A stretch of 23,405 bases of DNA, taken from positions 1 through 23,405 of the IMG/VR virus record IMGVR_UViG_3300027851_001177; one strand, written 5' to 3'. A model generated the notes under the pieces. That model saw only the letters and a program-made list of their open reading frames with translations. It had not been told where the DNA came from and did not search any database. This document shows, piece by piece, positions 4,369 to 21,220 of this stretch. Source of the DNA: a virus. Every line of letters starts with the position of its first letter. Position 1 is the first letter of the stretch. The position numbers and the translations under genes are program-made.

Positions 4369-4396
4369 TTGCGGGGCCTTTTTGGTACGTGGGAAA

Positions 4397-4672
4397 TCAA
4401 TCGAAGAGCATCCAGCGTGGGGGCTGGTGATCTTCGACAGGGGGATCGGCGGTGGCCGGGGGACGGCGGGCGCTTTCGCGCTGGATGCGGCGGGCTTCGA
4501 GGCGCTGATCGACCGCGCTCCAGCGGGCATCGGCATCGCGATCCACAAGGCGGGCGCGGGCTTCGGTGAGGGTGCAGCCCTCGGCCATTGCCACCTGCAT
4601 TTCGGTGCGGTGATCGCGGAGGCGCTCTGCCCGTGGGCGGCGGTCTCGGGTCCGGGTGAAGGACGCGGTCAC
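4397..4672 (-). CDS. Charged helical phage protein (91 aa)
   Basis: A very charged, mostly helical protein (repeated RxxR, ExR patterns, with TLTEARARLVDRDADARW in the middle) and a proline-rich tail. No family recognised. The start is one of two consecutive GTG codons; the GTG at 4670-4672 overlaps the upstream stop as GTGA, whereas the GTG at 4675 would add one residue. A 28-base gap separates its stop from the next gene. The low-complexity composition means the reading is less certain than for its neighbours. Confidence 0.6.
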   Translation of the reverse strand: MTASFTRTRDRRPRAERLRDHRTEMQVAMAEGCTLTEARARLVDRDADARWSAVDQRLEARRIQRESARRPPATADPPVEDHQPPRWMLFD

Positions 4673-4800
4673 CACGGCAGGCAGCCTTCGATCGGGCAGC
4701 GGGCGAAACCGGCCACGATGCGTTCGGCAAAGTGGAGCGCGGTGGCAAAGGCCAAGGCGAAGGCCGCGAGGCGGGCCGCATGGTGGAGCTGGTGCGCCAT
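4669..4800 (-). CDS. Small hydrophobic phage protein (43 aa)
   Basis: A short gene whose product is dominated by one hydrophobic stretch (about residues 8-32, ARLAAFALAFATALHFAERIVAGFA) and ends with two cysteines (ARCPIEGCLPW). It would be a single-pass membrane peptide. Evidence for reality is context: its ATG overlaps the upstream stop (TGATG at 4800) and its stop overlaps the next GTG. Function unknown. Confidence 0.5.
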   Translation of the reverse strand: MAHQLHHAARLAAFALAFATALHFAERIVAGFARCPIEGCLPW

Positions 4801-5144
4801 CACGCGGCCTGCTGCTGATCGGCGAGCAGGGTGTTGACCCGCTCTACCCATTTCACGCGCTTTGCCGATCCGGGCGGCATCAGGGCCGCGCCTTCCTGCA
4901 ACAGGGCGAGAACCTGCCTGCGCAGGCGGACCTTGTCTGGCGATGGCCTGCGCGGATTGACGGTGCGCGACGCGATGCTTCTGGATGCGATTCCGGCGCG
5001 GGTGCAATCTGCGCACCACACCTTGCTGCCGCGCCGGGACCAGCCCACCGGCAGTTGCGCATCGGGCGCATTGTGGATGTTGCCGCAGGAGCATTCGAAG
5101 CTGGCGACATGCGGCAGGGTGCCGGGGACGCGGGCGCGCTTCAC
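4800..5144 (-). CDS. Putative zinc-ribbon phage protein (114 aa)
   Basis: The N-terminal half has four cysteines spaced as in a zinc ribbon (Cys18, Cys20 in ECSCGN; Cys44, Cys47 in WCADC). The C-terminal half is basic and helical. A role in nucleic-acid binding is plausible but not shown. It starts with an ATGA overlap with the gene upstream and ends with a TGATG overlap with the gene downstream. Several genes of this operon carry such cysteine pairs. Confidence 0.7.
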   Translation of the reverse strand: MKRARVPGTLPHVASFECSCGNIHNAPDAQLPVGWSRRGSKVWCADCTRAGIASRSIASRTVNPRRPSPDKVRLRRQVLALLQEGAALMPPGSAKRVKWVERVNTLLADQQQAA

Positions 5145-5311
5145 TGGCCCGCTCCCGGCAGCTGGCTAACCAGCGCAACGACGGCCAATGAGAACGCGAT
5201 GAGCGCGATCAGCACGATGCCTGTCAGGGCGGTTCCGGCAGGCAGTTTGCGATCTGCCGGGGAGCGGCAATCACGGCATGGGCAATGCTGGCGGTGATAT
5301 TCAGACGGCAT
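5141..5311 (-). CDS. Small single-pass membrane protein with CPCRDC motif (56 aa)
   Basis: A 56-aa protein with a cysteine cluster (HCPCRDC, residues 9-15) followed by one clear transmembrane helix at about 28-49 (ALTGIVLIALIAFSLAVVALV). The expected topology is a short cysteine-containing head and a very short tail. The ATG at 5309-5311 gives an 11-base overlap with the upstream gene. Its stop makes an ATGA overlap with the downstream gene. Function unknown; membrane location is inferred from hydrophobicity. Confidence 0.6.
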   Translation of the reverse strand: MPSEYHRQHCPCRDCRSPADRKLPAGTALTGIVLIALIAFSLAVVALVSQLPGAGQ

Positions 5312-5819
5312 GGTGGGCCTCCTGGTTGATGCGCGATTCCGCGCGGATTTGGCGGGTGAGCGCCGCGAGCGCGTGGGTTCTGCGGCCCGGTTCAAGGTGC
5401 CAGCGCATGGCGATCACGCATTCGGCCTGCGCGGCCAGTTCATCGGAGAAGGTGCCTTCATCGCGGGCGATTTCGGCGATGGTGCGCAGGCTGGCGTCGA
5501 GCGCGGCGCGGCGTAGATCGAGCGAGGCTAGCGGCGCTGCCTCCCCTTCCCCGGTGCAGATCCAGCGCCAATCGGCGGCGATCATGCGGAAGGTGGCGAG
5601 TTCGGCCTCGGCTTCTTCGGCAGACATCTTTCCGGCGCGGATCAGGGCGGGAAAGCGCTTTTCACGCGAGGCGAGCATGCGCTCTGCCATCGCCAGCAGA
5701 CCGGCATAGTCGTAGAGGCCGAAGGGCGGATCGAAGGTTTCGATGCCCTGCCAGACCCGGCGCGCGCGGTTCGCGTTGAGATCGAGCACACCGGCATCAT
5801 CGATGAGGATCGCGCCCAT
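5301..5819 (-). CDS. Phage protein of unknown function (172 aa)
   Basis: A 172-aa, largely alpha-helical and acidic soluble protein. The run AERMLASREKRFPALIRAGKMSAEEAEAELATFRMIAADWRWI reads like a helical repeat seen in small phage proteins that act near replication genes, but no family name can be given. It starts immediately at the stop of the primase-helicase gene (one-base TGATG overlap), so its translation is coupled to that enzyme; a role as accessory to replication is an inference from that. Confidence 0.75.
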   Translation of the reverse strand: MGAILIDDAGVLDLNANRARRVWQGIETFDPPFGLYDYAGLLAMAERMLASREKRFPALIRAGKMSAEEAEAELATFRMIAADWRWICTGEGEAAPLASLDLRRAALDASLRTIAEIARDEGTFSDELAAQAECVIAMRWHLEPGRRTHALAALTRQIRAESRINQEAHHAV

Positions 5820-8482: not shown

Positions 8483-8832
8483 TGCGCAGGCCCAGCCTTC
8501 TGGCCATCGCCCTTGGCTGCCGCGATCAGGTTTGCCGCCGAGGTGACGTAGTGCCGCCCGAATTCAGTGAGGCGGTAGCTGCTGCTCATCTGACGCTTTC
8601 GGCCAACGTGGCGTTTCCACGTGCTGTCGCGCCATTGGACGAGGCCCTTCTGCTCCCACGCAGGGGCTTCGAGCATTTCGATCACCGCAACGTCGAACGC
8701 ATCCGCTTCACGGAAACCGCCGACCGAAGCGAGGAAATGGCGCTGGCGGCGGGTGAGGCGCGGCGCGACCAGGCGCAGGGCCTTGTCGAACCCGATACGG
8801 CGTGTGGCCGGGATGATGGAACGTGCAGGCAA
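8479..8832 (-). CDS. Early phage protein, possible winged-helix (117 aa)
   Basis: A 117-aa basic protein. The stretch from about 25 to 100 (LTRRQRHFLASVGGF..., then ...SSYRLTEFGRHYVTS) has the look of a winged-helix domain, with the YRLTEFGR strand typical of PadR/MarR-like wings, but I cannot name the family. The start is a TTG at 8830-8832, chosen because GAGGGGGA lies five to six bases upstream. It is the first gene after the only sizeable gap of the early operon and is coupled to the primase by ATGA. Confidence 0.65.
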   Translation of the reverse strand: MPARSIIPATRRIGFDKALRLVAPRLTRRQRHFLASVGGFREADAFDVAVIEMLEAPAWEQKGLVQWRDSTWKRHVGRKRQMSSSYRLTEFGRHYVTSAANLIAAAKGDGQKAGPAQ

Positions 8833-8843
8833 AGCTTCCCCCT

Positions 8844-8860
8844 CGCCCGGATTACGGGCG
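8844..8860. repeat. Hairpin between early sub-operons
   Basis: CGCCCG and CGGGCG form a perfect 6-bp stem around a 5-base loop. It lies 12 bases upstream of the TTG start at 8832, so in the leftward RNA it would stand just before the ribosome-binding site. It may shape initiation or processing of the downstream transcript. No T-run follows, so it does not look like a strong intrinsic terminator. Confidence 0.45.
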
Positions 8861-8891
8861 TTGATGGTCCAATGGTTTTCAGGTTGGTGGC

Positions 8892-8910
8892 CCCCGGATC
8901 AGGTCCGGGG
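8892..8910. repeat. GC-rich palindrome (CCCCGGA-N5-TCCGGGG)
   Basis: A perfect 7-bp inverted repeat with a 5-base spacer, just downstream of the Ogr-like gene stop. Palindromes of this form resemble the dispersed intergenic elements I associate with sphingomonad and related alphaproteobacterial chromosomes. It could act as an mRNA 3' stabiliser or weak terminator after the regulatory genes. Its chromosomal-type appearance inside a prophage is worth noting. Confidence 0.5.
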
Positions 8911-8918
8911 TGACGGGA

Positions 8919-9287
8919 TCAGCCGGAGAACATGCTGATCTGCGCCGGGTCTCCCTCTTCGCCCTTGCGCGCCGTCACGTGCGGCACCTGATCACGCGGG
9001 CAGACCGGCAGATCGAGGTCGGGCCGATCAATCAGGCCGGGGCTGTAGGAGTGGACGAAGACTACCTGCGCGGCGAAAGTGTGGCCGCAACCGGTGTTGG
9101 TGCAGTGCGCCTCAAGGTGTTTGACCTTTTCGGTGATGCGTTCCGACCGGCGAATGAAGCATGGCTCTTCGCACTTTGGGCAGGTGATGAAGGCGCTGTC
9201 TTTCGCAGGCTTTCCGCCAGAGCGGAGGCGCATCTGCAAAGGCGCGCTGATCATCGGGCGCGGGGCGAGATGGCCTTCACCGCTCAT
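8919..9287 (-). CDS. ogr: Ogr/Delta-type zinc-finger late transcription activator
   Basis: Member of the Ogr/Delta family, which activates P2-type late (head, tail, lysis) promoters. The 122-aa product has CPKC at 36-39, then Cys62 and Cys67: the spacing C-x2-C-x22-C-x4-C equals that of P2 Ogr, and the connecting text (RRSERITEKVKHLEAHCTNTGCGHTFAAQVVFVHSYSPG) matches the family pattern of ...T..RYIT...CQN..C..TF.....V..Y..PG. Unlike P2 Ogr (about 72 aa) it has extra N-terminal (about 33 aa) and C-terminal extensions. The ATG at 9285-9287 was chosen for its ATGA overlap with the upstream stop. Lying in the early operon, it would link early expression to activation of the tail/lysis genes at 12.6-23.4 kb. 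Confidence 0.88.
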   Translation of the reverse strand: MSGEGHLAPRPMISAPLQMRLRSGGKPAKDSAFITCPKCEEPCFIRRSERITEKVKHLEAHCTNTGCGHTFAAQVVFVHSYSPGLIDRPDLDLPVCPRDQVPHVTARKGEEGDPAQISMFSG

Positions 9288-9751
9288 GATTGGCACCGCT
9301 CATGAACATTCCCCTTTTCCAAGCTGGCGACCAGCGCCTGCATTTTGCCCAGTCCTTCGCGGGCCTCATCGATTGCGCGGGCGCGGGTCGCCGGGCAGTT
9401 TGCGCGGTTGGCAACGGCAAGGGCTGCAGCCACCGCTTCGCCCACTTCCTTCGATACCTCGCCCGAAAGCATCATGAGCTGATCGGGATCTTCCGGCTCG
9501 GCCTGGTCAAGTTCAAGGAACGCTTCGTAAGATGCGAAGAGCGGCGCACCATTCCCGCCAGCGCGACGATAGGCTGCATCAAGGCGCATGGCTGCGCGCA
9601 GGCTGATCCCTCGCCCGGTGTCTGGATCGGACATCTTGCGCAGTGCCCATTCCTTGATGCCGCTCACCTCGGCGCAACCGTCGTAGCCAAGCACCTTCAC
9701 GATATCGAGCAGCGCGGCGTGCGGGGTGAGCGGCGTGCGTTCCTTGGTCAT
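9284..9751 (-). CDS. CII-like phage regulatory protein
   Basis: A 155-aa protein with an N-terminal DNA-binding-like segment: residues about 10-62 (TPHAALLDIVKVLGYDGCAEVSGIKEWALRKMSDPDTGRGISLRAAMRLDAAYRRAGG) follow the pattern of the phage regulatory CII / CP76 family, in which a helix-turn-helix is followed by SDPD and LDAA motifs. The C-terminal half is helical and acidic. In P2-like and related phages such proteins steer replication or the lysis-lysogeny decision. Start ATG at 9751 overlaps the stop of the 54-aa gene. Assignment is by motif similarity; the DNA target is unknown. Confidence 0.65.
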   Translation of the reverse strand: MTKERTPLTPHAALLDIVKVLGYDGCAEVSGIKEWALRKMSDPDTGRGISLRAAMRLDAAYRRAGGNGAPLFASYEAFLELDQAEPEDPDQLMMLSGEVSKEVGEAVAAALAVANRANCPATRARAIDEAREGLGKMQALVASLEKGNVHERCQS

Positions 9752-9912
9752 GCCTGTGTCCTTGGCGCATTGGCGAGAACGCGGTTGGCGGAATCAATGC
9801 GGCGGGTGATCACGCGGCGGGCGGTTTCATCCGCTGTTTCCGCCAGCACCGTTTCCAGCGTGGAACGGCACTGCCGCAGGCACTCGGCCAGTTCGAGTTC
9901 TAGCGAGGTCAT
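9748..9912 (-). CDS. Small helical phage protein (54 aa)
   Basis: A 54-aa gene below usual length cut-offs. The translation begins MTSLELELAECLRQCRSTLE and ends RVLANAPRTQA; it is almost entirely helical and charged. It overlaps both neighbours by four bases (ATGA at 9909-9912 and 9748-9751) and fills exactly the space between the Cro-like and CII-like genes, which is the main reason to call it. Function unknown; a small partner or modulator of the switch proteins is conceivable. Confidence 0.65.
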   Translation of the reverse strand: MTSLELELAECLRQCRSTLETVLAETADETARRVITRRIDSANRVLANAPRTQA

Positions 9913-10265
9913 GCGGTCCTCCGCTGGGCAGTCGTGTCCAAAGCGTTGATCCGATTGCCGTTTCTTTTGCGGCTAACGGTGGATACCACCGTGATGTCCG
10001 GGCCGGTAGCCATGTCGACACCGTACCAGCGGGGATGCGCTGGGAGCACTTCCATCGGATAGATATCAGGGCGGAGACAATGACGAGAGACTTCATAAAG
10101 CTCTTCGGCACGAAGGACATATTCAGCTGGAAGTTGCTTGGACTGGTTCAGCCAGCGCCACACACGCGGTTGCGTCACTCCCAGATCACGCGCCATCTGG
10201 CTGGCGCTACCCGCGCGTTCTTCGCAGAGCTTCAGGGCTTCGTAGCGGGTGAGTTCTTCAATCAT
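9909..10265 (-). CDS. Cro/YdaS-like repressor, first gene of the lytic operon
   Basis: DNA-binding protein of 118 aa with a Cro/YdaS-type HTH: residues 1-55 read YEALKLCEERAGSASQMARDLGVTQPRVWRWLNQSKQLPAEYVLRAEELY, including the Q-x-x-V-x-R/W-W recognition helix. The following SRHCLRPDIYP is a hallmark of this family. The C-terminal 45 residues are less conserved. It is transcribed divergently from the cI repressor and opens the leftward early operon, so it should act as Cro does, shutting off cI. Its ATG (10263-10265) lies only about 8 bases from the predicted -10, with no ribosome-binding sequence, suggesting a leaderless mRNA. Confidence 0.85.
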   Translation of the reverse strand: MIEELTRYEALKLCEERAGSASQMARDLGVTQPRVWRWLNQSKQLPAEYVLRAEELYEVSRHCLRPDIYPMEVLPAHPRWYGVDMATGPDITVVSTVSRKRNGNRINALDTTAQRRTA

Positions 10266-10272
10266 GAAGAGA

Positions 10273-10300
10273 GTTATACATTATCGTTTAGAACGATCAA
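10273..10300 (-). promoter_or_regulatory. Putative lytic (cro) promoter
   Basis: On the minus strand, TTGATC (10295-10300) is separated by 16 bases from TATAAC (10273-10278). Transcription would start at about 10266, beside the cro ATG at 10265. The promoter lies across the first operator repeat and its perfect dyad ATCGTT-TAG-AACGAT (10283-10297), so repressor binding there would block it. Confidence 0.6.
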
Positions 10301-10350
10301 GCGCCAATTATACAAAATCGTTGAGTGTCCCTCTAACCGTTTCCGTATAG
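10274..10350. promoter_or_regulatory. Switch operators: three related repeats
   Basis: Two direct copies, TTATACAttATCGTTtAG (10274-10291) and TTATACAaaATCGTTgAG (10308-10325), are 34 bases apart start to start. A third, diverged and inverted copy is CTATACGGAAACGGTTAG on the minus strand (within 10331-10350). The first copy also contains a perfect 6-bp dyad (10283-10297). Their placement over both divergent promoters makes them the likely CI/Cro operators. The third copy overlaps the predicted cI -10. Confidence 0.6.
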
Positions 10351-10351
10351 C
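10346..10351 (+). promoter_or_regulatory. Possible cI -10 element
   Basis: TATAGC lies eight bases before the cI ATG at 10360, with no ribosome-binding sequence in between, so a transcript from here would be leaderless or nearly so, as is known for lambda cI from PRM. A -35 is poor (TTGAGT at 10321-10326 would need a 19-base spacer), which could mean activation by a bound repressor. Confidence 0.4.
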
Positions 10352-10359
10352 TAAGCGAC

Positions 10360-11073
10360 ATGGCTGAGATTATCGGTTCACGCCTTGAGCAACTCATGAA
10401 GGACCGAGGTTCCAATCAGTCGGTATTGGCGCGCGCACTCGGCATTTCGCAGCCGTCGGTGGGGCGGCTGATTAGCGGCGAAACCCGCGAATCTGGAAAG
10501 CTGATCGAGCTTGCCCGACTGCTGCAAACATCGCCCGAATACCTCATCGGTGAGGTGGATGATCCCGATTTGCTGCCATCACTCGGCGACAAGAAGGTTG
10601 CGTTTGGCGCATTCCCAAATGCGGAACCGTTAGCCGAGGAAGTGGACGAAGACGACGAAATCGTCGAGATCGAGGAGCTTGATCTCACGTTCGGCATGGG
10701 CGGCGGCAGCTATCTCGACATGCCAGTGAAGGCCAAGCCCCGGAAATTTACGCGCGGATGGCTGCGCATGTTCACGCAGGCCCCGCCGGTGCGCATCAAG
10801 ATTGCCCAGGGCATTGGCGATTCGATGGCGCCGACGATCCAGAACGCCGACATCGTGATCATCGACACCGCCGACACGCGGGTGAAGATGGGCGATCAGA
10901 TCTGGGCCGTGGCCTATGGCGAGACTGGCCTGATCAAGCGGCTGCGCCCGCTGCCCAGTGGCGGGGTGAAGATCATGTCTGACAACCCGCTGATCGAAGC
11001 CGAGACCGCCTATGACGGCGAGTTGCACGTGATCGGAAAGGTGGTTGCTGTCGTTCGCAGGATGGCTGGCTGA
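10360..11073 (+). CDS. CI-type phage repressor with S24 peptidase-like domain
   Basis: Lysogeny repressor of 237 aa. N-terminal HTH_3 domain at about 5-60 (SNQSVLARALGISQPSVGRLISGETRESGKLIELARLL). After an acidic linker (85-110) comes a LexA/S24-type domain with GDSM containing the nucleophile Ser155 and the general base Lys193 in LIKRL, 38 residues apart as in lambda CI. The usual Ala-Gly cleavage pair upstream of the serine is not present; the corresponding place reads FGMGGGS (111-117). It is divergent from cro and heads a rightward operon, with a TGATG overlap to the next gene. It should hold the prophage silent; whether it self-cleaves on DNA damage is uncertain. Confidence 0.92.
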   Translation: MAEIIGSRLEQLMKDRGSNQSVLARALGISQPSVGRLISGETRESGKLIELARLLQTSPEYLIGEVDDPDLLPSLGDKKVAFGAFPNAEPLAEEVDEDDEIVEIEELDLTFGMGGGSYLDMPVKAKPRKFTRGWLRMFTQAPPVRIKIAQGIGDSMAPTIQNADIVIIDTADTRVKMGDQIWAVAYGETGLIKRLRPLPSGGVKIMSDNPLIEAETAYDGELHVIGKVVAVVRRMAG

Positions 11074-11330
11074 TGGAGAGCGGCGAAGAAATTCCGAGCG
11101 GATCGCCCCAGCTTTATCTCTTCTGGCTGGCGATGGCGCAGGGCCGCGAAGAAGATGTTTCCCGCTATCTGAAGCAAGCTGGTTATAGCAACGTGTCCGA
11201 CGCTTTCCGCGATCTGAAAGAGGATGTGCAGTGGAGCGCGCAAGAACTGCGCAAATGCAACGACATTGATTCTGCAGTGGAAATGGAGAGGCTGGCGGCT
11301 GAGATTGCCAGCTATCTAAACCCCAACTGA
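11073..11330 (+). CDS. Unknown protein coupled to cI (85 aa)
   Basis: A small helical protein with an aromatic N-terminal part (SPQLYLFWLAMAQGREEDVSRYLKQAGY) and two further helices. No family recognised. Start and stop each share a base with their neighbours (TGATG), so it is translationally coupled to cI and to the HIRAN gene and should be made in the lysogen. A role in immunity or as a partner of the HIRAN protein is inferred only from this coupling. Confidence 0.75.
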   Translation: MESGEEIPSGSPQLYLFWLAMAQGREEDVSRYLKQAGYSNVSDAFRDLKEDVQWSAQELRKCNDIDSAVEMERLAAEIASYLNPN

Positions 11331-11752
11331 TGCCGCTACCTGCCTTCTCGCTCGCCGTGGTGGGCGCTGATTTCGCAAATGAAGACAAGGCGCGCAGCAA
11401 CCGCCGGTTCGAGATCGCATTGTGCAAGCCGGGTGACATGGTCCACCTGGTGCCGGAACCCAAGAACAAGGCCGACAGCAATGCCGTGGCGGTGTTTTCC
11501 GAGCGCGGCATCCAGATCGGCTATGTCACCGCCGAACGGTGCGTGCGCACCGGCGCGCTGATCCGGGAGGGGCGCGAGTTAAATTCGGTATTTCAACAGG
11601 CTGCGCCCTACGGTTGTGTGATCCGCGTCGCATTCGACGGAGAGGCTCCGGTGGTAGACCTCAATGCGATACCGATTCCGCGCAGGCCGGAGCTGGCCGA
11701 GGGGGCGGATCTTGATTTTGAATTTGAGCCGGACCCGGAGTGGCCGGATTAG
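11330..11752 (+). CDS. HIRAN-domain protein
   Basis: A 140-aa protein whose residues 5-75 match the HIRAN pattern: SLAVVGADFAN, RRFEIALCKPGDMVHLVPEPKNKADSNAVAVFSERGIQIGYVTAE, with the LVPEP-N-D-NAVAV core and the GY strand. HIRAN domains bind DNA or DNA ends (3' ends in HLTF) and occur alone or fused to nucleases and helicases. The acidic tail (EGADLDFEFEPDPEW) is unusual. It lies in the cI operon, so expression in the lysogen is likely; candidate roles are DNA-end recognition, protection of phage DNA or exclusion of other phages. Role not proven. Confidence 0.8.
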   Translation: MPLPAFSLAVVGADFANEDKARSNRRFEIALCKPGDMVHLVPEPKNKADSNAVAVFSERGIQIGYVTAERCVRTGALIREGRELNSVFQQAAPYGCVIRVAFDGEAPVVDLNAIPIPRRPELAEGADLDFEFEPDPEWPD

Positions 11753-11782: not shown

Positions 11783-12295
11783 ATGATGCGCTGGGCGGTG
11801 CCGTTGCTTGCATTCGTGGTCGGTTCGTGCGGTGCCGAAAGTGTCCAGAGTCATAACTTCAGCTTGAAGGTCGACACGCCGTTTGTGCCGGGGGTCAACA
11901 AGGTTGTCGGCGTTCGGGTAGATATTGGCGGGGATGGCCGCGATGCTGGGCTGCTCATCGCAACTGCGAAAGCAATAAAGGCAATGGCGGCTGACCTGAA
12001 CAACGGCAAATCGCCGGTCAATGGTCCCTTCGACCGCATTTATTTTACGGTCTACGCCCCGCAGGTCGAGCGCACCTCATCTGTCAATGGCAAGCTAATT
12101 CACCTCACCTATGATCGGCAGGAACTGCAGAGAACTGTTCGCATCGGAGTAGATGAAGACACGCTTCTAGCTTCGGCGAGCGATGTGGGCTGGTGGACTC
12201 CTGCGAACGACGATGTAATCGACAGCTATTGCCTCCAGCAGGTGCAAAGTGCCTTTTGCGCTAAAATTGCTTCGCCGCAGAGCATCTCGCAATGA
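11783..12295 (+). CDS. Putative lipoprotein of unknown function (170 aa)
   Basis: The N-terminus is a lipoprotein signal: MMRWAVPLLAFVVGSC, with a lipobox ending in Cys16. The mature part is mixed alpha/beta (NFSLKVDTPFVPGVNKVVGVRVDIGG...) with a further cysteine pair near the C-terminus (SYCLQQVQSAFCAKI), perhaps a disulfide, which fits an exported protein. No family recognised. It follows the HIRAN gene by 30 bases with AGGATGG before the ATG, and overlaps the Excalibur gene by ATGA. A prophage-encoded lipoprotein in the lysogenic operon suggests surface modification or superinfection exclusion, but this is inference. Confidence 0.7.
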   Translation: MMRWAVPLLAFVVGSCGAESVQSHNFSLKVDTPFVPGVNKVVGVRVDIGGDGRDAGLLIATAKAIKAMAADLNNGKSPVNGPFDRIYFTVYAPQVERTSSVNGKLIHLTYDRQELQRTVRIGVDEDTLLASASDVGWWTPANDDVIDSYCLQQVQSAFCAKIASPQSISQ

Positions 12296-12576
12296 ACCGC
12301 CGCGCGCTTCTGGCGGGGCTGCTCGCATCGCTGCTGATCGGCCTGCCGGAAGGCGCAAAGGCGGCGCGGAAGCGCAAGGCGCGCAAGAGCAGATCCGGCA
12401 CATCGCGGCGGCGGTCCAGTGGGTCAGGATCTTCGCGCCGGTCTGGTGGGGGTGGAGCCAGCTATTACCCCAACTGTGCCGCCGCCCGCGCTGATGGTGC
12501 TGCACCGGTGCGCAGAGGTGATCCCGGTTATTCGCGCAAGCTGGATCGTGATGGTGACGGGGTGGGTTGCGAGTAG
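12292..12576 (+). CDS. Exported Excalibur-domain protein (94 aa)
   Basis: A 94-aa protein with a signal peptide (MNRRALLAGLLASLLIGLPEGAKA, probable cleavage after AKA), a low-complexity Arg/Ser/Gly stretch (25-55) and a C-terminal Excalibur domain: YYPNCAAARADGAAPVRRGDPGYSRKLDRDGDGVGCE. This domain has a conserved DxDxDGxxCE calcium-binding-like loop (Asp85-Glu94) and a disulfide-forming cysteine pair, and is found on secreted or surface proteins. The start overlaps the lipoprotein stop (ATGA), so the two exported products are made together. Probable location: periplasm or cell surface. Confidence 0.8.
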   Translation: MNRRALLAGLLASLLIGLPEGAKAARKRKARKSRSGTSRRRSSGSGSSRRSGGGGASYYPNCAAARADGAAPVRRGDPGYSRKLDRDGDGVGCE

Positions 12577-14037: not shown

Positions 14038-16274
14038 CAGCGGTCCCCTTCGTATGAGCTGCGCGCCCGCACGCCCTGCACCTGTTCGATTTTGCGGATC
14101 ACCGCCTGGGCAAGTTCATCGACGCTTTGCCCCGGTGCGCCATAGACCTGCACGGTGAGAGGGCCTGCGGATTGCGCTGGCTTCATCCCGGAGCCGGAAG
14201 GTGCGTTCATGGCAAGTGCGCTGCCGCTGGTGATTGCTGATTTGCCAGCAGCGGCCACCCCAGCGGCGAGATTGCGGGCCGATGCCATCGGTGCCGCTCG
14301 TGAACGATCAATGCCACGTGCCAGCCCTGCCGACACATGGCTGCCCAGTTCCATGAAAACGCGCGATGGAGAATGCATGTTCAGTGCCTTTTGCACCGGC
14401 AGCGGCAGGGTCTTGGCCAGCGAATAGAGGGTTTCCTTGATCCCTTCCCACCGCGATTTGATGCCGTTGATCAGGCCATTGACAATTGCTGCACCGGCAT
14501 TGGCAAAAATCTGACCGAAGCCGATGAGGATCGAAACAACGCCTTCCAAGCCAGAGCGAAAAATGGTTTTGGCGGCTTCCCAAATTCCGCTGAAATCACC
14601 CCGGATCATTGCGGTGAGCATGTCGATTGCACCACCGATCATCCCGAATGCAGCCTGCACCACACCCACGAACGTCTGGATAACAGCCACCACGACCGAC
14701 CCGAAAACGTCCTTCATCATCTGCCCGAATGCCTGCAATTCCGGCGATGCCTGGGCGGCGGCGAACAGGTTCTGGAGTTTGGTCCACAGCCCCATGATGG
14801 TATCCATCAGCGGGCGGAACTGCGCAGCCAGCCAATCCCAATTGTCGTAAATCAGGTAGGCGGCAAGGGCGATTGCAGCGGCTACACCCGCAACAATCGC
14901 AAGCAGCGGGGCGAGGCCAATGCCAAGCCCGGCGGCAACCGTCATCAGCGTGCCGAAGATCGAAACGAGCGCGCCCACGCCCATGAGAACCGGCCCCATG
15001 AACGCCGCCATCATCGCTGCCCAGATGATGAACGACTGCATTCCCGGTGGCAGGTTGCCGAACAGTTCAAGCATCCGGGTGAAAGTATCGATTACCGGGG
15101 TAAGCTTCGGCAGCAGTTCATCGCCAATCTTGACCTTGAGTTCATCCCATGCGGTGGCAGCGGCTTTCAGGCGGTTGGCAGTGCTGTCCTGCGTGCGGAT
15201 CACATCGCCGTTGGCGTTCGCCAGTTGCTCCCGGATCAGGACAGCGCGAACGAGGACTTTTTCTTCTTCAGAAAGTTCCTTTTTCCCCTTCATCAGCCCA
15301 AGTTGCAGGGCCTTGGCTTTGAGCGCGTTATCAGACAGCAGCACGCCGACCGCGCGCAGCGGTTCTGCCTCACCGATCAGACCGGAGAAAATCTTCTGCT
15401 TGGAGGTGTCGTTGCCAAGGTTCCTGAAGCTGGCGAGGTCTTGGGTCAGGACTGTCATTTCCTGCGCAAGCCGCACCGCCGATTCATGATCCGTCATCTT
15501 CGAAAAGAGGGTCATGTAGTCCATCGACATCGACTGCATTTCAGAGGTCGAGCGCTGCATCGTGTTGCCGGTGCTCTCGGCCCACTTCCTCGCTGCTGCG
15601 GCTGACTTTCCGAACGTCACCTCAAATGCGCTCTGCATTTCCTGCGCGTCCATTGCCGCTTTGAACGCCACCGCTCCGAAACCGAGAATCGGCGCGGTTA
15701 CCACGGCAGATGATGTCATGCCTGCGCCGGAGATCGACTGGCCTGCGCCTTTCAGCTTCTCACCCTGCCCGCGCATCCTGCCCAGTTCGGCCAGCCTGTC
15801 CTTCTGGCGCTTGAGCTTGGTGTTGTTCTCCTCGATCTGACTGCCGAGCCTGCGCTCCTCGTCGGTCAGACGCGAAACATCGACGCCGGAATCCTTGAGC
15901 GAGGATTGCAACTTGCCCAGCTGGTTGCTCTGGCTTTCGACCGTGCGGGACAGCTTTTTTGCGCCGCTTTCCAGCAGCTTCAATTCGGCGCGCATTTCCT
16001 TGGTGGGCTTGGTGCTTTGCGCCATTTCGGCCCGCAGATCGCGGGCACGGCGGCGCATTTCGTCGATGGATTTGTGATTGGCCTGCATCGACTGCTGCAG
16101 CTTCTTGCTCTCGCCAATCTTCTCCTGGGCACGCTGCAGCGCCTTGGTATCGTCCTGCAGCTTGCGGAAATCCTTGCCGAGACCTTTGGCCCCGGCAGCA
16201 AGCCGCTTGATCGTGCCGCCGAGGCGATCAATCGCCTCGAACGACACGGACAAGCGCAGGTTGCGATCACTCAC
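14037..16274 (-). CDS. T: Tail tape measure protein
   Basis: The 745-aa protein determines tail length and is threaded in the tube. Residues 1-160 are coiled-coil rich (KLQDDTKALQRAQEKIGESKKLQQSM...). A TP901-like tape measure domain follows (AMDAQEMQSAFEVTFGKSAAAARKWAESTGNTMQRSTSEMQSMSMDYMTLFSKM, about 208-260), then a hydrophobic section of several helices (about 410-475, including WAAMMAAFMGPVLMGVGALVSIFG), which would be membrane-active during DNA entry. The C-terminus (LNMHSPSRVFMELGSHVSAGLARGI) is a common tape measure motif. Start is GTG (16272-16274), overlapping the E' gene by eight bases. By the usual rule of about 0.15 nm per residue the tail would be near 110 nm (inference). Confidence 0.92.
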   Translation of the reverse strand: MSDRNLRLSVSFEAIDRLGGTIKRLAAGAKGLGKDFRKLQDDTKALQRAQEKIGESKKLQQSMQANHKSIDEMRRRARDLRAEMAQSTKPTKEMRAELKLLESGAKKLSRTVESQSNQLGKLQSSLKDSGVDVSRLTDEERRLGSQIEENNTKLKRQKDRLAELGRMRGQGEKLKGAGQSISGAGMTSSAVVTAPILGFGAVAFKAAMDAQEMQSAFEVTFGKSAAAARKWAESTGNTMQRSTSEMQSMSMDYMTLFSKMTDHESAVRLAQEMTVLTQDLASFRNLGNDTSKQKIFSGLIGEAEPLRAVGVLLSDNALKAKALQLGLMKGKKELSEEEKVLVRAVLIREQLANANGDVIRTQDSTANRLKAAATAWDELKVKIGDELLPKLTPVIDTFTRMLELFGNLPPGMQSFIIWAAMMAAFMGPVLMGVGALVSIFGTLMTVAAGLGIGLAPLLAIVAGVAAAIALAAYLIYDNWDWLAAQFRPLMDTIMGLWTKLQNLFAAAQASPELQAFGQMMKDVFGSVVVAVIQTFVGVVQAAFGMIGGAIDMLTAMIRGDFSGIWEAAKTIFRSGLEGVVSILIGFGQIFANAGAAIVNGLINGIKSRWEGIKETLYSLAKTLPLPVQKALNMHSPSRVFMELGSHVSAGLARGIDRSRAAPMASARNLAAGVAAAGKSAITSGSALAMNAPSGSGMKPAQSAGPLTVQVYGAPGQSVDELAQAVIRKIEQVQGVRARSSYEGDR

Positions 16275-16412: not shown

Positions 16413-16709
16413 CTACGCGCTCTGCGAGTTCGACTGGTCCTTCGGAATGAAAAAATCCGCGATCTTCGTGCTGATCGTGAACAGGTCGGACACCGAAAGA
16501 TTGAGCACTTCGGGATTGGTCAGCGGCGGCACCGTGATGCGGGGCAGCAGATCGTGAACGGCATCGATCTTCAACTGCACGATATCGATCATGGAAAGGC
16601 CGCGCAGTTCGCCCGAACGCGGGCGGCGCAGGCCAAGCTCTGCGATTTTCTGGTCACCACGAATTACGGGTTCTTCGAGAGTGACGGTCACAAGGGTGGT
16701 TTCGGACAT
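16413..16709 (-). CDS. E: Tail assembly chaperone gpE
   Basis: A 98-aa member of the P2 gpE-type tail assembly chaperone family. Hallmarks: VTLEEPVIRGDQKIAELGLRRPRSGELRGLSMIDIVQLKIDAV, then LLPRITVPPLTNPEVLNLSVSDLFTISTKIADFF. It binds the tape measure protein during tail assembly. ATG at 16707-16709 was chosen; another in-frame ATG at 16724 adds five residues. The final part contains a T_TTT_TTC heptamer that can send ribosomes into the E' frame, giving an E+E' protein of about 147 aa. The zero-frame stop is at 16413-16415. A hairpin-rich, 207-base non-coding stretch lies upstream. Confidence 0.9.
   Translation of the reverse strand: MSETTLVTVTLEEPVIRGDQKIAELGLRRPRSGELRGLSMIDIVQLKIDAVHDLLPRITVPPLTNPEVLNLSVSDLFTISTKIADFFIPKDQSNSQSA
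16449..16455 (-). promoter_or_regulatory. Programmed -1 frameshift site in E (T_TTT_TTC)
   Basis: On the minus strand the heptamer T TTT TTC is in the correct phase for simultaneous slippage: codons 85-87 of E read GAT TTT TTC. After slipping, the next codons are CAT TCC GAA GGA CCA and remain open through to the E' ATG. P2 has T_TTT_TTG at the same place. Position, phase and continuity make this a well-supported recoding signal. Confidence 0.85.
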
Positions 16710-16744
16710 CGTGCGGGGCTCCATTGGGTGCGGGGCAATGGAAC

Positions 16745-16793
16745 GCCTGCGGTGGTGGTCAGCAGGGGGTTCGGGACCGCCACCACCGCAGGC
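16745..16793. terminator. Large GC-rich hairpin upstream of E
   Basis: A perfect 14-bp inverted repeat: GCCTGCGGTGGTGG (16745-16758) and CCACCACCGCAGGC (16780-16793) around a 21-base loop. It lies between the regulatory island and E on the leftward transcript, 36 bases before the E ATG. No T-run follows it, so the role may be termination, RNA processing or mRNA stabilisation at the 5' end of the E-E'-T-U-D transcript. The type given is a best guess. Confidence 0.45.
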
Positions 16794-16824
16794 CCTTGCC
16801 GTGCAGCGCCCCGCAAAAGGACTG

Positions 16825-16849
16825 CCCGGCAAAGCGGAAGCTTGCCGGG
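16825..16849 (-). terminator. Hairpin with short T-run, possible end of the SHOCT/RHH transcript
   Basis: CCCGGCAA and TTGCCGGG form a perfect 8-bp stem around a nine-base loop; in the leftward direction it is followed at 8 bases by TTTT. It is 68 bases past the stop of the SHOCT-like gene and could terminate the leftward island transcript, leaving E, E', T, U and D to depend on read-through or a local late promoter. Confidence 0.45.
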
Positions 16850-16889
16850 TGGTGTGACCCGCGCGCGCGTGGGCTGCTATCGGGGTGGT

Positions 16890-16910
16890 GGGTAGAGGCC
16901 GGGTTTACCC
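16890..16910. promoter_or_regulatory. 21-bp dyad element, copy 1 (GGGTA-N11-TACCC)
   Basis: GGTAGAGGCCGGGTTTACC (16891-16909) differs at one base from 21201-21219. In both copies the outermost pair keeps the dyad but with exchanged bases: G..C here, C..G there. It lies seven bases downstream of the SHOCT gene stop and about 180 bases before E. Ogr-family activators bind an interrupted dyad, so this is a candidate late operator, unproven. Confidence 0.4.
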
Positions 16911-16916
16911 TCAAAA

Positions 16917-17387
16917 CTACCGATTTAGCAGGAGGGCCTTTTGCGCGGCGAACTCTTCTGGAGTGAGAATCCCTCGTTCAAGGAGGTTGGCCAATTTGGT
17001 CAAATCATCCGCAATAGAACTACCTACTGTGGCAGAACTTGGCCGGGCTGCTTTGCTGGATGCTTCGACAATTTCTCTGAGGCGCTCAAAACTCGCACTT
17101 TGCTTAGCGCCCTTGAAAAGTACGCTGTTCTCGTCGGAGGTGGCCGAGAGCAGCCCGCCGCGACTTTCGGCCCCCCCTAAGATCGAGAATTGAATGTAAC
17201 CAGATGTGAATGTGCCGGAAGGTTTGAACTGCACTGCTGTAATGCTGGCAAATGGTATCCGCTTTTCACCCTTCAAACCATGATTGGCGAAAGAGACAAG
17301 GCCCTTCCGACGAATAACGATCCCCTCACTCGTTACTTCGACGTGTGCCCCGAATCCTTCAAACACCTGACTTGCGCTCATGCTCAT
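16917..17387 (-). CDS. PH-like (DUF4429-type) protein with SHOCT domain
   Basis: A 156-aa protein of two parts. Residues about 1-105 are beta-rich (AHVEVTSEGIVIRRKGLVSFANHGLKGEKRIPFASITAVQFKPSGTFTSGYIQFSILGG), the pattern of a PH-like / DUF4429 domain with the I-x-F-xx-I-xx-V-Q strand. The last 33 residues (IADDLTKLANLLERGILTPEEFAAQKALLLNR) are a SHOCT oligomerisation domain. The ATG at 17385-17387 has GAGGGC just upstream; a second ATG is two codons later. It lies 50 bases downstream of the RHH repressor gene and belongs to the regulatory island rather than to the tail. Function in phages is unknown; the domain pair suggests binding a membrane or protein partner. Confidence 0.75.
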   Translation of the reverse strand: MSMSASQVFEGFGAHVEVTSEGIVIRRKGLVSFANHGLKGEKRIPFASITAVQFKPSGTFTSGYIQFSILGGAESRGGLLSATSDENSVLFKGAKQSASFERLREIVEASSKAARPSSATVGSSIADDLTKLANLLERGILTPEEFAAQKALLLNR

Positions 17388-17437
17388 CGCCCTCAATCTA
17401 CGAATCGAAGCGATTGTCTTAGTGCGCGATAGAAGAA

Positions 17438-17623
17438 TCAATCTCTTGAATCATCGAGAGCCTTCTCGACAAGGCGGCGGATTGCTTCAGGCCGATTGAC
17501 CGCTTCACGCTCTGCAAAATCGTCAATCTTTTCCAGCATGCCTCGCTCGATCCGAACAGCGACTTGTTCGCTATCGACCTTAGGACGGCCCCTAGGTTTT
17601 TTGCATGCATTTAACATTGACAT
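17438..17623 (-). CDS. Ribbon-helix-helix (CopG/Arc-type) repressor
   Basis: A 61-aa DNA-binding protein with an RHH fold: DSEQVAVRIERGMLEKIDDFAEREAVNRPEAIRRLVEKALDD. The beta strand is VAVRIE, followed by helix A (MLEKIDDFAERE) and helix B (RPEAIRRLVEKAL) with the N-R-P/S-E-A-I-R-R-L signature. The basic N-terminal arm includes KKPRGRPK. It starts at 17621-17623 (or at the ATG two codons later), between the two arms of an inverted repeat, and there is essentially no leader. Its divergent neighbours end in a P22-type antirepressor gene, so it is the likely counterpart of P22 Mnt: a repressor of antirepressor synthesis, probably autoregulated. Confidence 0.88.
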   Translation of the reverse strand: MSMLNACKKPRGRPKVDSEQVAVRIERGMLEKIDDFAEREAVNRPEAIRRLVEKALDDSRD

Positions 17624-17658
17624 ACAGATTTAATGCATGCAAATAATTCGGGCGTCAA
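17600..17658. promoter_or_regulatory. Operator dyad and overlapping divergent promoters of the antirepressor island
   Basis: Inverted arms TTTGCATGCATTTAA (17600-17614) and TTAATGCATGCAAA (17630-17643) each contain the palindrome TGCATGCA. Rightward promoter: perfect TTGACA (17617-17622) and AAATAAT (17641-17647). Leftward promoter: TTGACG (17653-17658) and CATTAA (17630-17635) with a 17-base spacer. The right arm lies in both promoters, so one bound RHH protein would silence both directions. The leftward start would fall at the RHH ATG, suggesting leaderless translation. Confidence 0.7.
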
Positions 17659-17682
17659 GGGAGTACCAATCCCGAGACGCCC
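17650..17682 (+). promoter_or_regulatory. 5'-UTR hairpin of the antirepressor operon
   Basis: GGGCGTC / GACGCCC (7 bp) and inner GGGA / TCCC (4 bp) with a 7-base loop. The hairpin encloses the first copy of CAAGGGAGT; an identical CAAGGGAGT lies at 17693-17701, just before the GTG start at 17709. The predicted start of transcription (about 17654) would remove the first few bases of the stem. It could tune translation or RNA stability. Confidence 0.45.
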
Positions 17683-17708
17683 TAACTCAAACCAAGGGAG
17701 TTCCGCCC

Positions 17709-17852
17709 GTGGCCCAAGCTAAAGTCGTTCCTATCACCGCCGCCCTGCCTGTCGCAACCTCTGCCAAGATTGTTGATCTGGCAAAGGTCCGCCGGATCAA
17801 GCTGCTCCGTGATCTGTGGGACCAGCACAATCAGGACGGGAGCGCGCGGTGA
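17709..17852 (+). CDS. Small island protein, unknown function (47 aa)
   Basis: A 47-aa basic product (MAQAKVVPITAALPVATSAK at the start, RRIKLLRDLWDQHNQDG near the end). The GTG at 17709-17711 was chosen because AAGGGAG precedes it by eight bases; an upstream in-frame ATG at 17637 lies inside the operator and would be before the predicted transcription start. It overlaps the next ATG by one base (TGATG). No family recognised. It is the first gene of the rightward antirepressor operon. Confidence 0.6.
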   Translation: MAQAKVVPITAALPVATSAKIVDLAKVRRIKLLRDLWDQHNQDGSAR

Positions 17853-18196
17853 TGGGTATGCCCATTGCGCAGGCGCAGTTCCTGCCCCGCACCATCACGC
17901 TCGGTATCAACACTGTTTCGCGTAAGGCCATCGAACAGCAGATTGATTTCCTGATCGGCCTGCTGGACCAGATCGACGGCGATCCCGACCTTGAGGAAGA
18001 CGATCACCATTTCGACCCGCTCGACTTTGGCGAGCTGGATCGCATCAGCGTCGTCAAGCCAACTTATCGCATCGATCAGTCAACCGGCCCGAACAACCTC
18101 AGCGAAGCGTGGGCACCGGATTATGAACTGCCCGCAGGCTTTCCTTTGCCCGAAGCCTTTATCGAATCAGACGAATATGCGCAGATCAAGGTCTGA
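17852..18196 (+). CDS. Acidic island protein, unknown function (114 aa)
   Basis: A 114-aa acidic protein: an N-terminal helix (SRKAIEQQIDFLIGLLDQIDGD) followed by an Asp/Glu-rich segment (PDLEEDDHHFDPLDFGELD). No family recognised. The ATG at 17852 is shared with the TGA of the preceding gene; a GTG at 17849 is an alternative. Its stop is followed by AGGGGAAGCGAG, the ribosome-binding site of the antirepressor, so the three genes form one operon. High acidity could mean a DNA mimic or partner-protein role, but nothing in the sequence proves this. Confidence 0.65.
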   Translation: MGMPIAQAQFLPRTITLGINTVSRKAIEQQIDFLIGLLDQIDGDPDLEEDDHHFDPLDFGELDRISVVKPTYRIDQSTGPNNLSEAWAPDYELPAGFPLPEAFIESDEYAQIKV

Positions 18197-18608
18197 CAGG
18201 GGAAGCGAGATGAGTGCAACCTACGAGCTGGTACCGTTCCATCAGCACAAGCTGCTGACGGTCAATCAGGATGGGGACGTTTTCGTTCCCCTCAAACCAT
18301 TGGTGCTAGCTATGGGACTTGCATGGGAATCACAGCGTCAACGAGTGGCTCGTGACCCAGTTCTCGGCAAAGGTACCTGTATTTTACAGGTACCTTCTGG
18401 GGGTGGTCCGCAGGATATGCTTGCAATGCGCTTGGAAAGGATTCCGGGCTTCATTGCCACCATTCCAACAGGGCACATCAAAAACCTTGAGATTCGAAAA
18501 GCAGTGATTCTCTTTCAGGAGGAGGCCTTCGACGTCCTGTTTGCCCACTTCTTTCAGGGACGAAAGGGAACAATAGCAGGCGAAATATCAGACAGGGGAG
18601 CGAGACGA
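18195..18608. repeat. Near-identical 18/19-bp sequences flanking the antirepressor N-domain
   Basis: GACAGGGGAAGCGAGATGA (18195-18213, containing the ribosome-binding site and ATG) recurs as GACAGGGGAGCGAGACGA (18591-18608) inside the gene, with one base deleted and T changed to C in ATG. They bracket almost exactly the P22_AR_N-coding stretch, whose base composition is clearly less GC-rich than the following part. This looks like a recombination boundary. Confidence 0.5.
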
Positions 18609-19049
18609 AGGGAGCTACCCGCGCTCCTTGATCGCATGAAGACCGAAACGCACCCCGAAGTCCGCAGGGTGATTCATCAGGTGATCGTCAGAGCCTGCGA
18701 GGCGGAAGGCATTGAGCCGCCCACGATTGACGCCATCGCGCCGCCACCGGAGCAGAGGCCAGAATTGGCCGAGACGTTCTTTGCTGCCTTGTCCGAATTG
18801 CAGGATAAAGGCGTGCCGGTCGATTACCACCGCGACCCCACGCTGCTCGCGGTCCCGCTCAAGGCGGTCGAGTTCGCTGCGGTTCGGCACAAAATTAAAT
18901 GCGCGCGCGGGCAGCCGTTGTGGGCAGCACTGCGCGCGCATGTCGCATTCGAGATGGCCGGGGCAGTCAACTGCCGGGATGGCAAGTCCCGGCACTGCTG
19001 GGTGTTCAGGCGGGAAAAGCTGCCTGTTGAGTTTCCCCCGCCAGCCTGA
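18210..19049 (+). CDS. Phage antirepressor, P22_AR_N domain
   Basis: A 279-aa protein whose N-terminal part (14-115) is a P22 antirepressor N-domain: GDVFVPLKPLVLAMGLAWESQRQRVARDPVLGKG, PSGGGPQDMLAMRLERIPGFIATIPTGHIKNLEIRKAVILFQEEAFDVLFAHFF. The C-terminal part (about 140-279) is a separate, basic module ending in HCWVFRREKLPVEFPPPA that I do not recognise. Antirepressors of this type bind and inactivate CI-like repressors, here presumably the protein at 10360. ATG at 18210 has AGGGGA at good spacing. The gene is oriented against the tail operon, and its TGA abuts the stop of FII. Confidence 0.85.
   Translation: MSATYELVPFHQHKLLTVNQDGDVFVPLKPLVLAMGLAWESQRQRVARDPVLGKGTCILQVPSGGGPQDMLAMRLERIPGFIATIPTGHIKNLEIRKAVILFQEEAFDVLFAHFFQGRKGTIAGEISDRGARRRELPALLDRMKTETHPEVRRVIHQVIVRACEAEGIEPPTIDAIAPPPEQRPELAETFFAALSELQDKGVPVDYHRDPTLLAVPLKAVEFAAVRHKIKCARGQPLWAALRAHVAFEMAGAVNCRDGKSRHCWVFRREKLPVEFPPPA
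18370..18396. repeat. 27-bp perfect interrupted palindrome inside the antirepressor gene
   Basis: AAGGTACCTGTA (18370-18381) and TACAGGTACCTT (18385-18396) are exact reverse complements with TTT between. It lies in the antirepressor codons for KGTCILQVP. A 12-bp perfect stem by chance is very unlikely. It could be an operator, an RNA hairpin limiting translation, or a recombination site. Confidence 0.6.
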
Positions 19050-19559
19050 TCAGCTGGAAATGATCGCCATGATCTCGGCATAGCGATCGACGCCATCGAC
19101 GATGAAGATGCCGCGCAGCATGTCGATCTCGATCTCGGTGCGGCCATCCACCACGCGGCGGTAGTAGGCCAGCGGCACCTTGAATTTCTGTTCGGTGCTG
19201 TCGCCCGCTTTGGATTTTCCGGGATCGATTTCGGTAAAGCGGCCACCGATGTAGACTTCCACCGCCTGGGCGGCGCTGCCGTTATCTGCCTGATAGGCCC
19301 CGACGAGGCGCAGGCGGACGCCATCGACGCGGGTGGTGCCGAATTTGCGGATCAGGGCCGCTTCGTGCCCGCCCATCGTGATACCGGCCTCCTGCGCCTC
19401 AAGCCCCATGTCGAGCATCACCGGCCCCAGCATGCCGCCGCCGCGCCATTCCTCGGTCGCAATCGCCAACTTCGGCTCTTCGAATTCGGTAATGACGCCA
19501 ATGTAGCTTTCGCCATCGACGAAGGTGTTAAGGTTCTTCAGTTTGCGCGGGAGGCCCAT
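19050..19559 (-). CDS. FII: Major tail tube protein FII
   Basis: The 169-aa P2 FII-type tail tube protein that forms the inner tube of the contractile tail. Family signs: MGLPRKLKNLNTFVDGESYIGVITEFEEPKLAIATEEWRGGGMLGPV, then DMGLEAQEAGITMGGHEAALIRKFG and the end DMLRGIFIVDGVDRYAEIMAI. Length is normal (P2 FII is 172). ATG at 19557-19559 with AAAGGA seven bases upstream. It follows the sheath gene as in P2; its stop abuts the antirepressor stop. Confidence 0.95.
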   Translation of the reverse strand: MGLPRKLKNLNTFVDGESYIGVITEFEEPKLAIATEEWRGGGMLGPVMLDMGLEAQEAGITMGGHEAALIRKFGTTRVDGVRLRLVGAYQADNGSAAQAVEVYIGGRFTEIDPGKSKAGDSTEQKFKVPLAYYRRVVDGRTEIEIDMLRGIFIVDGVDRYAEIMAIISS

Positions 19560-19597
19560 GAGGGTTTCCTTTCAGAAGCGGGAAGCGGGTGGGGCGA

Positions 19598-20764
19598 TCA
19601 GGCAGCGTTGGCGATCTGATCGGCAAAGCCGGAGTAGTAGAAATCGGTGATGACGAGGCTGACCTGCGGGTTTTCCATCGGTGCCACCGGGGTGTACTGG
19701 ATGCGGAAATTCGGACGGCCAGCGGCAAGCTGCTCTGCCGGGTTGGCATCGGCATCGAAGAAGATTTCCGCGCCCATGATCCGGCCTTCCACCACCAGTC
19801 GGCGGAATTCGGCGTTCACCGTTTCCATCAGGTCTTTGACGCGCGCCACGGTCATCGGCTGATCGAGGAACGGCTGCACCGCGCTGGCGATTACATCCTG
19901 CAGGGCGTGGCTGGTGCGGACCGCCGATTCAAAGCTGAACTCTGGCTCATTCTCACCCGCCGTGGTGCGATTGCCCCAGAGCCGATAGCCCGAATTGCGG
20001 ATGATCGTGGTCACCTGCGCATCATTCAGCACACCGGCATCGGTATCGTTATCGAGCAGATCGTAGTGGACGTTCTTCGTTACCCCGGTGACGCCATAGA
20101 ACGGCACATTGCTAACGGTCTTGTGCCAGCCCTGATCCTCATCGATGCGGGCGCGCAGGCCCAGCGTGCGGGCAACGATCTCGCCTGAAAAAGTGGCCGA
20201 GCTATCGGGCCAGAGCAGCATCAATTCCCGCGCGGCGAATTCATCGCGATAGGTGACCACTTCGGCCACATCGTCACCAATGGCGCTGGCATAGACAAAG
20301 GCGCGCAGCTTGCGCGCGGTGATGACCATTTCTGCCACCACGGCCTGCGTATCGAGGCCGGGAGCGCCGATGATGCGCGGGCGACGGCCCACCACCGTTT
20401 CTGCCGCGAGCAGCGCCTGCAGGCCGGTGTAGACATTGCCATCGGTGGTGCCGATCACGTTGGCGTCGGTCTCTGCCTGATCCTCGCCCTCGGCCACGCG
20501 CACCACGATCACCAGCGGGCTGGCTTCATCGCCGATGGCTTCGAGCGCGGCCTTGAGCGTGCCGCCGCTGCCCGCCTTGCCCGCCGCCGCATCGACACTG
20601 GTTACCAGCACCGGCGTGTTGAGCGGGAACGCCGCATCAATCGCACCCTGCACTTCGGGCGCGATGGCGGTGGACGTGGCGATCAGGCCGATGGTGGACA
20701 GGGTGCTGCGCGCAATCGTGCGGACGCCGCTTGCGGATTCGGTGATGGTGAGACCGTGGGCCAT
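19598..20764 (-). CDS. FI: Tail sheath protein FI
   Basis: The 388-aa contractile sheath protein. It begins MAHGLTITESASGVRTIARSTLSTIGLIATS and contains the mid-region YASAIGDDVAEVVTYRDEFAARELMLLWPDSS and the C-terminal VTGVTKNVHYDLLDNDTDAGVLNDAQVTTIIRNSGYRLWGNRTT, all characteristic of P2-type sheaths; the last strand (PQVSLVITDFYYSGFADQIAN) is the one that links subunits. ATG at 20762-20764 has AAGGAA eight bases upstream; the frame stays open further, into W, but that part does not resemble sheath. Length agrees with P2 FI (396). Confidence 0.95.
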   Translation of the reverse strand: MAHGLTITESASGVRTIARSTLSTIGLIATSTAIAPEVQGAIDAAFPLNTPVLVTSVDAAAGKAGSGGTLKAALEAIGDEASPLVIVVRVAEGEDQAETDANVIGTTDGNVYTGLQALLAAETVVGRRPRIIGAPGLDTQAVVAEMVITARKLRAFVYASAIGDDVAEVVTYRDEFAARELMLLWPDSSATFSGEIVARTLGLRARIDEDQGWHKTVSNVPFYGVTGVTKNVHYDLLDNDTDAGVLNDAQVTTIIRNSGYRLWGNRTTAGENEPEFSFESAVRTSHALQDVIASAVQPFLDQPMTVARVKDLMETVNAEFRRLVVEGRIMGAEIFFDADANPAEQLAAGRPNFRIQYTPVAPMENPQVSLVITDFYYSGFADQIANAA

Positions 20765-21153: not shown

Positions 21154-21199
21154 GACCGCACAGAAGCGCGCATTGCGCGCGGGAGGCCAGCGGGCGGGA

Positions 21200-21220
21200 C
21201 GGTAGAGGCCGGGATTACCG
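21200..21220. promoter_or_regulatory. 21-bp dyad element, copy 2 (CGGTA-N11-TACCG)
   Basis: GGTAGAGGCCGGGATTACC (21201-21219) with matching outer bases C..G. It lies 11 bases below the V stop and 46 bases upstream of the W ATG, the only appreciable gap in this part of the tail operon. See copy 1 at 16890-16910: one mismatch in the core and a compensated change in the outer pair. Confidence 0.4.

Follow-up and report, generated by a model that had tools for sequence, protein, structure and literature searches.

In the window, which is the whole stretch of DNA analyzed here (IMG/VR virus record IMGVR_UViG_3300027851_001177, 23,405 bases), a P2-like phage carried its tail operon on the minus strand, and the tail genes FII and E were separated by a block of five genes. 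On the minus strand of this block lay a small ribbon-helix-helix (RHH) repressor gene and, behind it, a gene for a DUF4429/SHOCT protein; facing them on the plus strand were two small genes, small1 and small2, and a gene for an antirepressor-type protein (AR) with a P22_AR_N domain. The original prediction, made from the DNA letters, had described an RHH gene facing two small genes and a P22_AR_N gene over a shared operator, inserted between FII and E, and all of these genes were found in their places, with Pfam and PHROG matches. The five frames were intact and AR was full length, and the G+C content of the RHH, SHOCT, small2, and AR genes was 50-58%, compared with 61.5% in the window. Because the genomes closest to the window were those of Novosphingobium, the host of the phage is probably a Novosphingobium.

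The block is an insertion. Among 132 relatives having both FII and E, the gap between the two genes was 12-391 bp (median 98), compared with 2340 bp in the window, and the block was present in none of them (0/132), so that it did not prove to be a part of the tail operon conserved in all relatives. Three distinct relatives (L002, L003/L106, and L004) presented an empty site, with the flanks joined within 2-9 bp; their DNA homology with the window ended at 16835-16840 and restarted at 19048-19050. L002 aligned with the window at 96% identity over 16702-16839 and at 89% over 19049-20637, leaving a spacer of 4 bp, and the junction spacer lay at the same place in L003/L106 (2 bp) and L004 (9 bp). 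On the right, the AR stop codon abutted that of FII, which placed the block directly after the FII stop codon. On the left, a further relative, L105 (Novosphingobium sp. 28-62-57), in which FII was 95% identical, also had 16840-16910, and the left edge of the cassette core was therefore set at 16911. L105 carried at its FII-E junction a hairpin similar to the terminator-like one in the gap between the cassette and gpE. An intergenic repeat of 45 bp, 78% identical between its copies, was located at 16866-16910, at the left edge of the cassette, and, farther up the tail operon, at 21175-21219, and was also found in L105; it is possibly a boundary or recombination sequence.

The predicted shared operator region was also recovered. 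An inverted repeat with arms of 18 nt and 14 nt between them paired at 16/18 positions, compared with at most 14 in 300 dinucleotide shuffles; its arms carried TGCATGCA, and the RHH start codon fell within it. The repeat flanked a TTGACA -35 box, and AAATAA, a plausible -10 box, followed 18 nt later inside the right arm. No promoter within the block was reported by a generic scanner, and the putative ant-operon promoter is therefore read from the TTGACA-18-AAATAA arrangement and from the equal layout in relatives. The operators of relatives differed in sequence and had the same geometry, as in TGCTCAT...ATGAGCA of L177 and L223. Regulation of the ant operon by RHH is thus well supported by the anatomy of the region, and RHH would presumably bind the inverted repeat. 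Two other controllers were considered and rejected: the three LexA patterns tried (GTTCN7GTTC, GAACN7GAAC, and CTGTN8ACAG) were absent from the whole window, and the CI-side repeat, TTATACA..ATCGTT (10274-10325), was unlike the cassette operator.

Near the expected start of the ant mRNA, a conserved leader hairpin began. Eleven RHH loci carried it; among them were seven distinct stems, in which two-sided (compensatory) changes occurred at several positions. In total, 75/77 stem cells paired, a count whose significance is overstated by permutation because the arms had been chosen by eye as inverted repeats; the automatic alignment put two outer pairs in the wrong place. The pairing would fit an RNA structure or a DNA palindrome alike, since either gives the same counts.

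Table 1. Features of the inserted cassette, its flanks, and the related transposon (window coordinates unless a locus is named)
Feature	Position	Strand	Basis or remark
Cassette core	16911-19049		Empty sites in L002, L003/L106, L004; left edge from L105
DUF4429/SHOCT passenger gene	16917-17441	-	Matches 3e-9 and 9e-8
RHH repressor gene	17438-17623	-	Pfam RHH_1 9e-5; phrog_4738 'transcriptional repressor' 7e-9
Putative RHH operator, inverted repeat	17597-17646		Arms 17597-17614 and 17629-17646
Putative ant-operon promoter	17617-17646	+	TTGACA 17617-17622, AAATAA 17641-17646; layout kept in L177, L223, L205
Conserved leader hairpin GGGCGTC...GACGCCC	17650-17682	+	Fold z-score -3.5
small1	17709-17852	+	GTG start, AAGGGAG upstream; alternative ATG 17637
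small2	17852-18196	+	Homologue in L211 cassette
AR, antirepressor-type protein	18210-19049	+	Pfam P22_AR_N 8e-23; phrog_524 'anti-repressor Ant' 3e-34; primase-type C-terminal domain
FII, tail tube gene (flank)	19050-19559	-	Phage_tube 5e-52
gpE, tail gene E (flank)	16413-16709	-	phrog_103 5e-30
Terminator-like hairpin, cassette/gpE gap	16825-16849	-	
CI-like repressor, S24 domain	10360-11073	+	Proposed target of AR
ISL3 element	L177 about 3930-7080; L179 about 8113-11264		

An alignment scan with RHH gave 80 loci, and homologues of the ant cassette adjoined the RHH gene in 20 of them, mostly divergent from it. In L008/L107 (Novosphingobium CF614), RHH faced a small gene and an AR with 34% identity over the whole length at the T-U junction, where the gap in L008 was 1485 bp, compared with a median of 19.5 in 112 relatives. 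At the S-J junction, RHH of L175 faced small1, a middle gene, and AR, L243 had a P22_AR_N cassette, and L193 had a degraded copy with an AR fragment; a Bro-N-type cassette adjoined S in L192. Beside the portal gene Q of L211, RHH faced a small2 homologue (59% identity) and AR, a further RHH/antirepressor cassette lay upstream of V in L217, and in the siphophages L096 and L208 the cassette adjoined the tape measure gene. In the window, L008, L175, and L192, AR ran opposite to the late genes, but this was no general rule, as L243, L217, and L096 departed from it. In L211, one RHH gene was located between two antirepressor-type genes (1-915 and 1875-2597), the one divergent from RHH being of the P22_AR_N type and the one behind RHH of the Bro-N type. 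Control of another type was seen in Acinetobacter phage ABMM1 (L086, 2519-3873), in which an HTH-like gene was divergent from a P22_AR_N gene in the gap between tail tube and sheath genes.

The small1 motif LLRxLWxxxxxDGSA was found in seven distinct loci (the window, L175, L177/L179, L181/L191, L222-224, L239/L240, and L254), and in these small1 was always the first gene of the operon facing RHH; translation in the window probably begins at GTG rather than at the upstream ATG. The start of small2 overlapped the stop of small1, and no relatives of small2 were detected by exact peptide words, the L211 homologue being found through its position. The original prediction had regarded the SHOCT gene and the two small genes as possible new components; of these, small1 is a recurrent part of the cassette, small2 recurred in L211, and SHOCT is a passenger. 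The gene in the slot behind RHH varied: the window had SHOCT there, L177/L179 the ISL3 transposase gene, L193 a gene of the LuxR type, and L211 a second antirepressor-type gene. In L008, a SHOCT/DUF4429 homologue (39%) was encoded directly behind CI, at 15435-15899. The SHOCT and RHH genes of the window shared 4 bp (the SHOCT frame opened at TTG 17441, and its first ATG was at 17387), and in both the window and L008 SHOCT would be expressed together with a repressor, i.e., in the lysogen. A PADLOC defence scan of the cassette proteins gave no match. RHH relatives on plasmids (Devosia, Rhodoplanes, Sulfitobacter, and Paracoccus) faced non-AR genes, and RHH alone is therefore no marker of the cassette. 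In a Devosia plasmid-borne phage (L199, 2701-4222), a related RHH faced a small gene and an HNH-like gene in the gap between tape measure and tail tube genes, an arrangement suggesting that this type of RHH guards other inserted genes too.

In L177 (Sphingomonas ursincola) and the viral contig L179, RHH, small1, a middle gene, and a Bro-N antirepressor gene were located inside an ISL3-family element. The transposase (DDE_Tnp_ISL3, Pfam 8e-47) was encoded by a gene overlapping the RHH stop, and the two copies were 89% identical over 3.2 kb, both with perfect 23-bp terminal inverted repeats. An 8-bp target duplication, GCCCCAGC, stood on either side in L179, and 7/8 bases matched in L177. A D12-class methylase gene, which in L179 comes after P2-type terminase and portal genes, was split by the element in L177 and intact in L179, and L179 therefore represents an empty site for the L177 insertion; the L179 copy itself was just downstream of the methylase gene, a spot empty in L177. 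These two copies show that an RHH/antirepressor cassette can travel as transposon cargo. In the library searched, the term 'ant moron' turned up in a single paper, and the two papers mentioning antirepressor, transposon, and ISL3 together were genome reports on other subjects, judging by title and abstract; such an absence is no proof of novelty. The window block was also considered as a transposon and rejected, as its borders showed neither inverted-repeat ends nor a plausible counterpart of the L177 ends, and none of its five genes encoded a transposase. Since the block is without such ends, its own arrival by transposition does not follow from the L177/L179 transposon.

Our preferred reading, to which we assign a probability of roughly 0.6, is that the block is an ant moron silenced by RHH, which antagonizes CI-type repressors once derepressed. 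In a lysogen, RHH bound to the inverted repeat that flanks the -35 box would keep small1, small2, and AR off, and the RHH transcript would also carry the SHOCT passenger. The ant promoter would fire when RHH fails, loses out to a competitor, or is missing, e.g., when the phage has just entered a new cell; an mRNA starting with the conserved hairpin would be made, and small1, small2, and AR would be produced. AR would then antagonize a CI-type repressor, either that of the phage itself or that of a resident prophage. Inactivation of the window CI by AR, as the original prediction had proposed, is plausible. Several points weigh against this reading, which is drawn from sequence. The S24 domain of the window CI carried GDSM and IKR motifs, and AR is therefore probably not required for SOS induction; cleavage in the SOS response may make an antirepressor needless. 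The P22 c2 repressor is also cleavable. RHH and small1 were kept without a nearby AR in L181/L191 and L239, so that the switch can exist without AR. The C-terminus of AR was of the primase type and unlike that of P22 Ant. Downstream of CI, the window encoded a HIRAN-domain protein at 11330-11752, which PADLOC listed as a weak candidate (PDC-M03B), and, at 12292-12576, a protein with an Excalibur domain.

The C-terminal half of AR matched phrog_20645, which also matched the C-terminus of the phage DNA primase (phrog_1139) encoded on the minus strand of the window at 5819-8482, and the two C-termini were homologous (hhalign 99.7%). A sequence search of solved structures returned nothing for AR and only a weak NikR match for RHH, and Foldseek with AR gave nothing significant. 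With VIA-align, the N-terminal model of AR resembled Bro/KilA-N-type folds (granulovirus Orf22, Z 8.0; DdrC; Mbp1), and the C-terminal model resembled winged helices (TcpK and SaPIBov1 Rep residues 452-561, Z about 7), matches that were middling and were taken as hints only. In L177/L179, the antirepressor had the same C-terminal domain with Bro-N instead at the N-terminus. In a class-wide sample of 385 genomes, this domain was found only in the cassette of G003 and in primases, and at this sampling the cassette is therefore rare outside sphingomonads; exact peptide words detected no close AR relatives in viral contigs. These data allow another explanation, in which AR acts on replication: the domain held in common with the primase would bind the same DNA or partner and block or redirect the replication of resident or competing phages, and the N-terminal Ant domain would serve for oligomerization or DNA binding. 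The homology with the primase, the modeled likeness to DNA-binding winged helices, and the retention of the domain when the N-terminus was swapped are in its favor, but it is the N-terminal domain that names the Ant family, and any binding partner of the primase domain is putative; considering also the middling structure matches, we regard this explanation as unlikely.

It is also conceivable, at still lower probability, that the block is a decayed or selfish passenger, in which RHH would only silence a cargo operon whose influence on lysogeny has been lost, with selection keeping SHOCT and small2, e.g., as lysogenic-conversion genes. The degraded copy in L193, the copies without a nearby AR, and the variable slot behind RHH would fit such decay, but the intact frames and full-length AR of the window, the recurrence of the AR family in independent phages, and the preservation of operator, hairpin, and small1 argue against it. 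Returning to the ant moron reading, a bolder extension is advanced tentatively, as somewhat doubtful: in temperate phages of alphaproteobacteria, the RHH/small1/leader-hairpin/antirepressor cassette may be a unit with a mobility of its own, able to move by ISL3 transposition, as in L177/L179, and then fixed at many late-gene junctions. It would carry a new leader RNA element and an antirepressor with a C-terminal domain from the phage primase, and could thus disturb not only the repression of resident prophages but also their replication. A 2008 analysis of P22-like phages asked why ant morons occupy one morphogenetic-gene site and how they arrived there (PMC2629481). Since cassettes sit at several P2-like junctions and inside a transposon with clean ends, the route of spread becomes testable. 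The role of the Ant protein is still unclear (PMC3121763), and the second half of AR, held in common with a primase, offers a handle on it.

That the block is a true member of P22 immI moved between phages, as originally predicted, is very improbable: it shares the P22_AR_N domain, the divergent small RHH gene, and the late-gene location, but four features tested differed. P22 Mnt and Arc matched phrog_795, 3178, and 228, whereas the window RHH matched phrog_4738 and 876; the first gene, small1, had no RHH/Arc match; sar RNA (RF00262) was not found in the window block, whereas the P22 control was found at E 5.7e-20; and the C-terminal half of P22 Ant matched phrog_377 and phrog_2812, whereas that of AR matched phrog_20645, with an overall identity of 20%. 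In addition, ant of P22 has the same direction as genes 16 and 9, whereas AR was antiparallel to the tail genes, and the cassette had several insertion sites and a recurrent leader hairpin. With P22 immI (mnt-arc-ant), known as the 'ant moron' in P22-like phages (PMC2629481), the cassette has in common that the antirepressor gene closes an operon, that a small RHH gene faces this operon across a control region serving both, and that the block sits among late genes, varies between relatives, and carries extra genes. Several different repressors are targets of P22 Ant (PMC3121763). As with 186 Tum, the Gifsy antirepressors, and Fels-1 FsoA (PMC3121763), the gene lay outside the immunity region and its proposed target is a lysogenic repressor; unlike antirepressors controlled by LexA or a repressor, its controller was a dedicated RHH. 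The L177/L179 element resembled ISL3 insertion sequences with passenger genes in its transposase, 23-bp ends, 8-bp duplication, and cargo, and differed in that the cargo was an RHH/small1/Bro-N-antirepressor set with its RHH gene overlapping the transposase gene. We therefore consider the window cassette a variant of the ant moron that would function like P22 immI yet is without the four features tested, and small1 and the leader hairpin are recurrent parts that P22 does not have.

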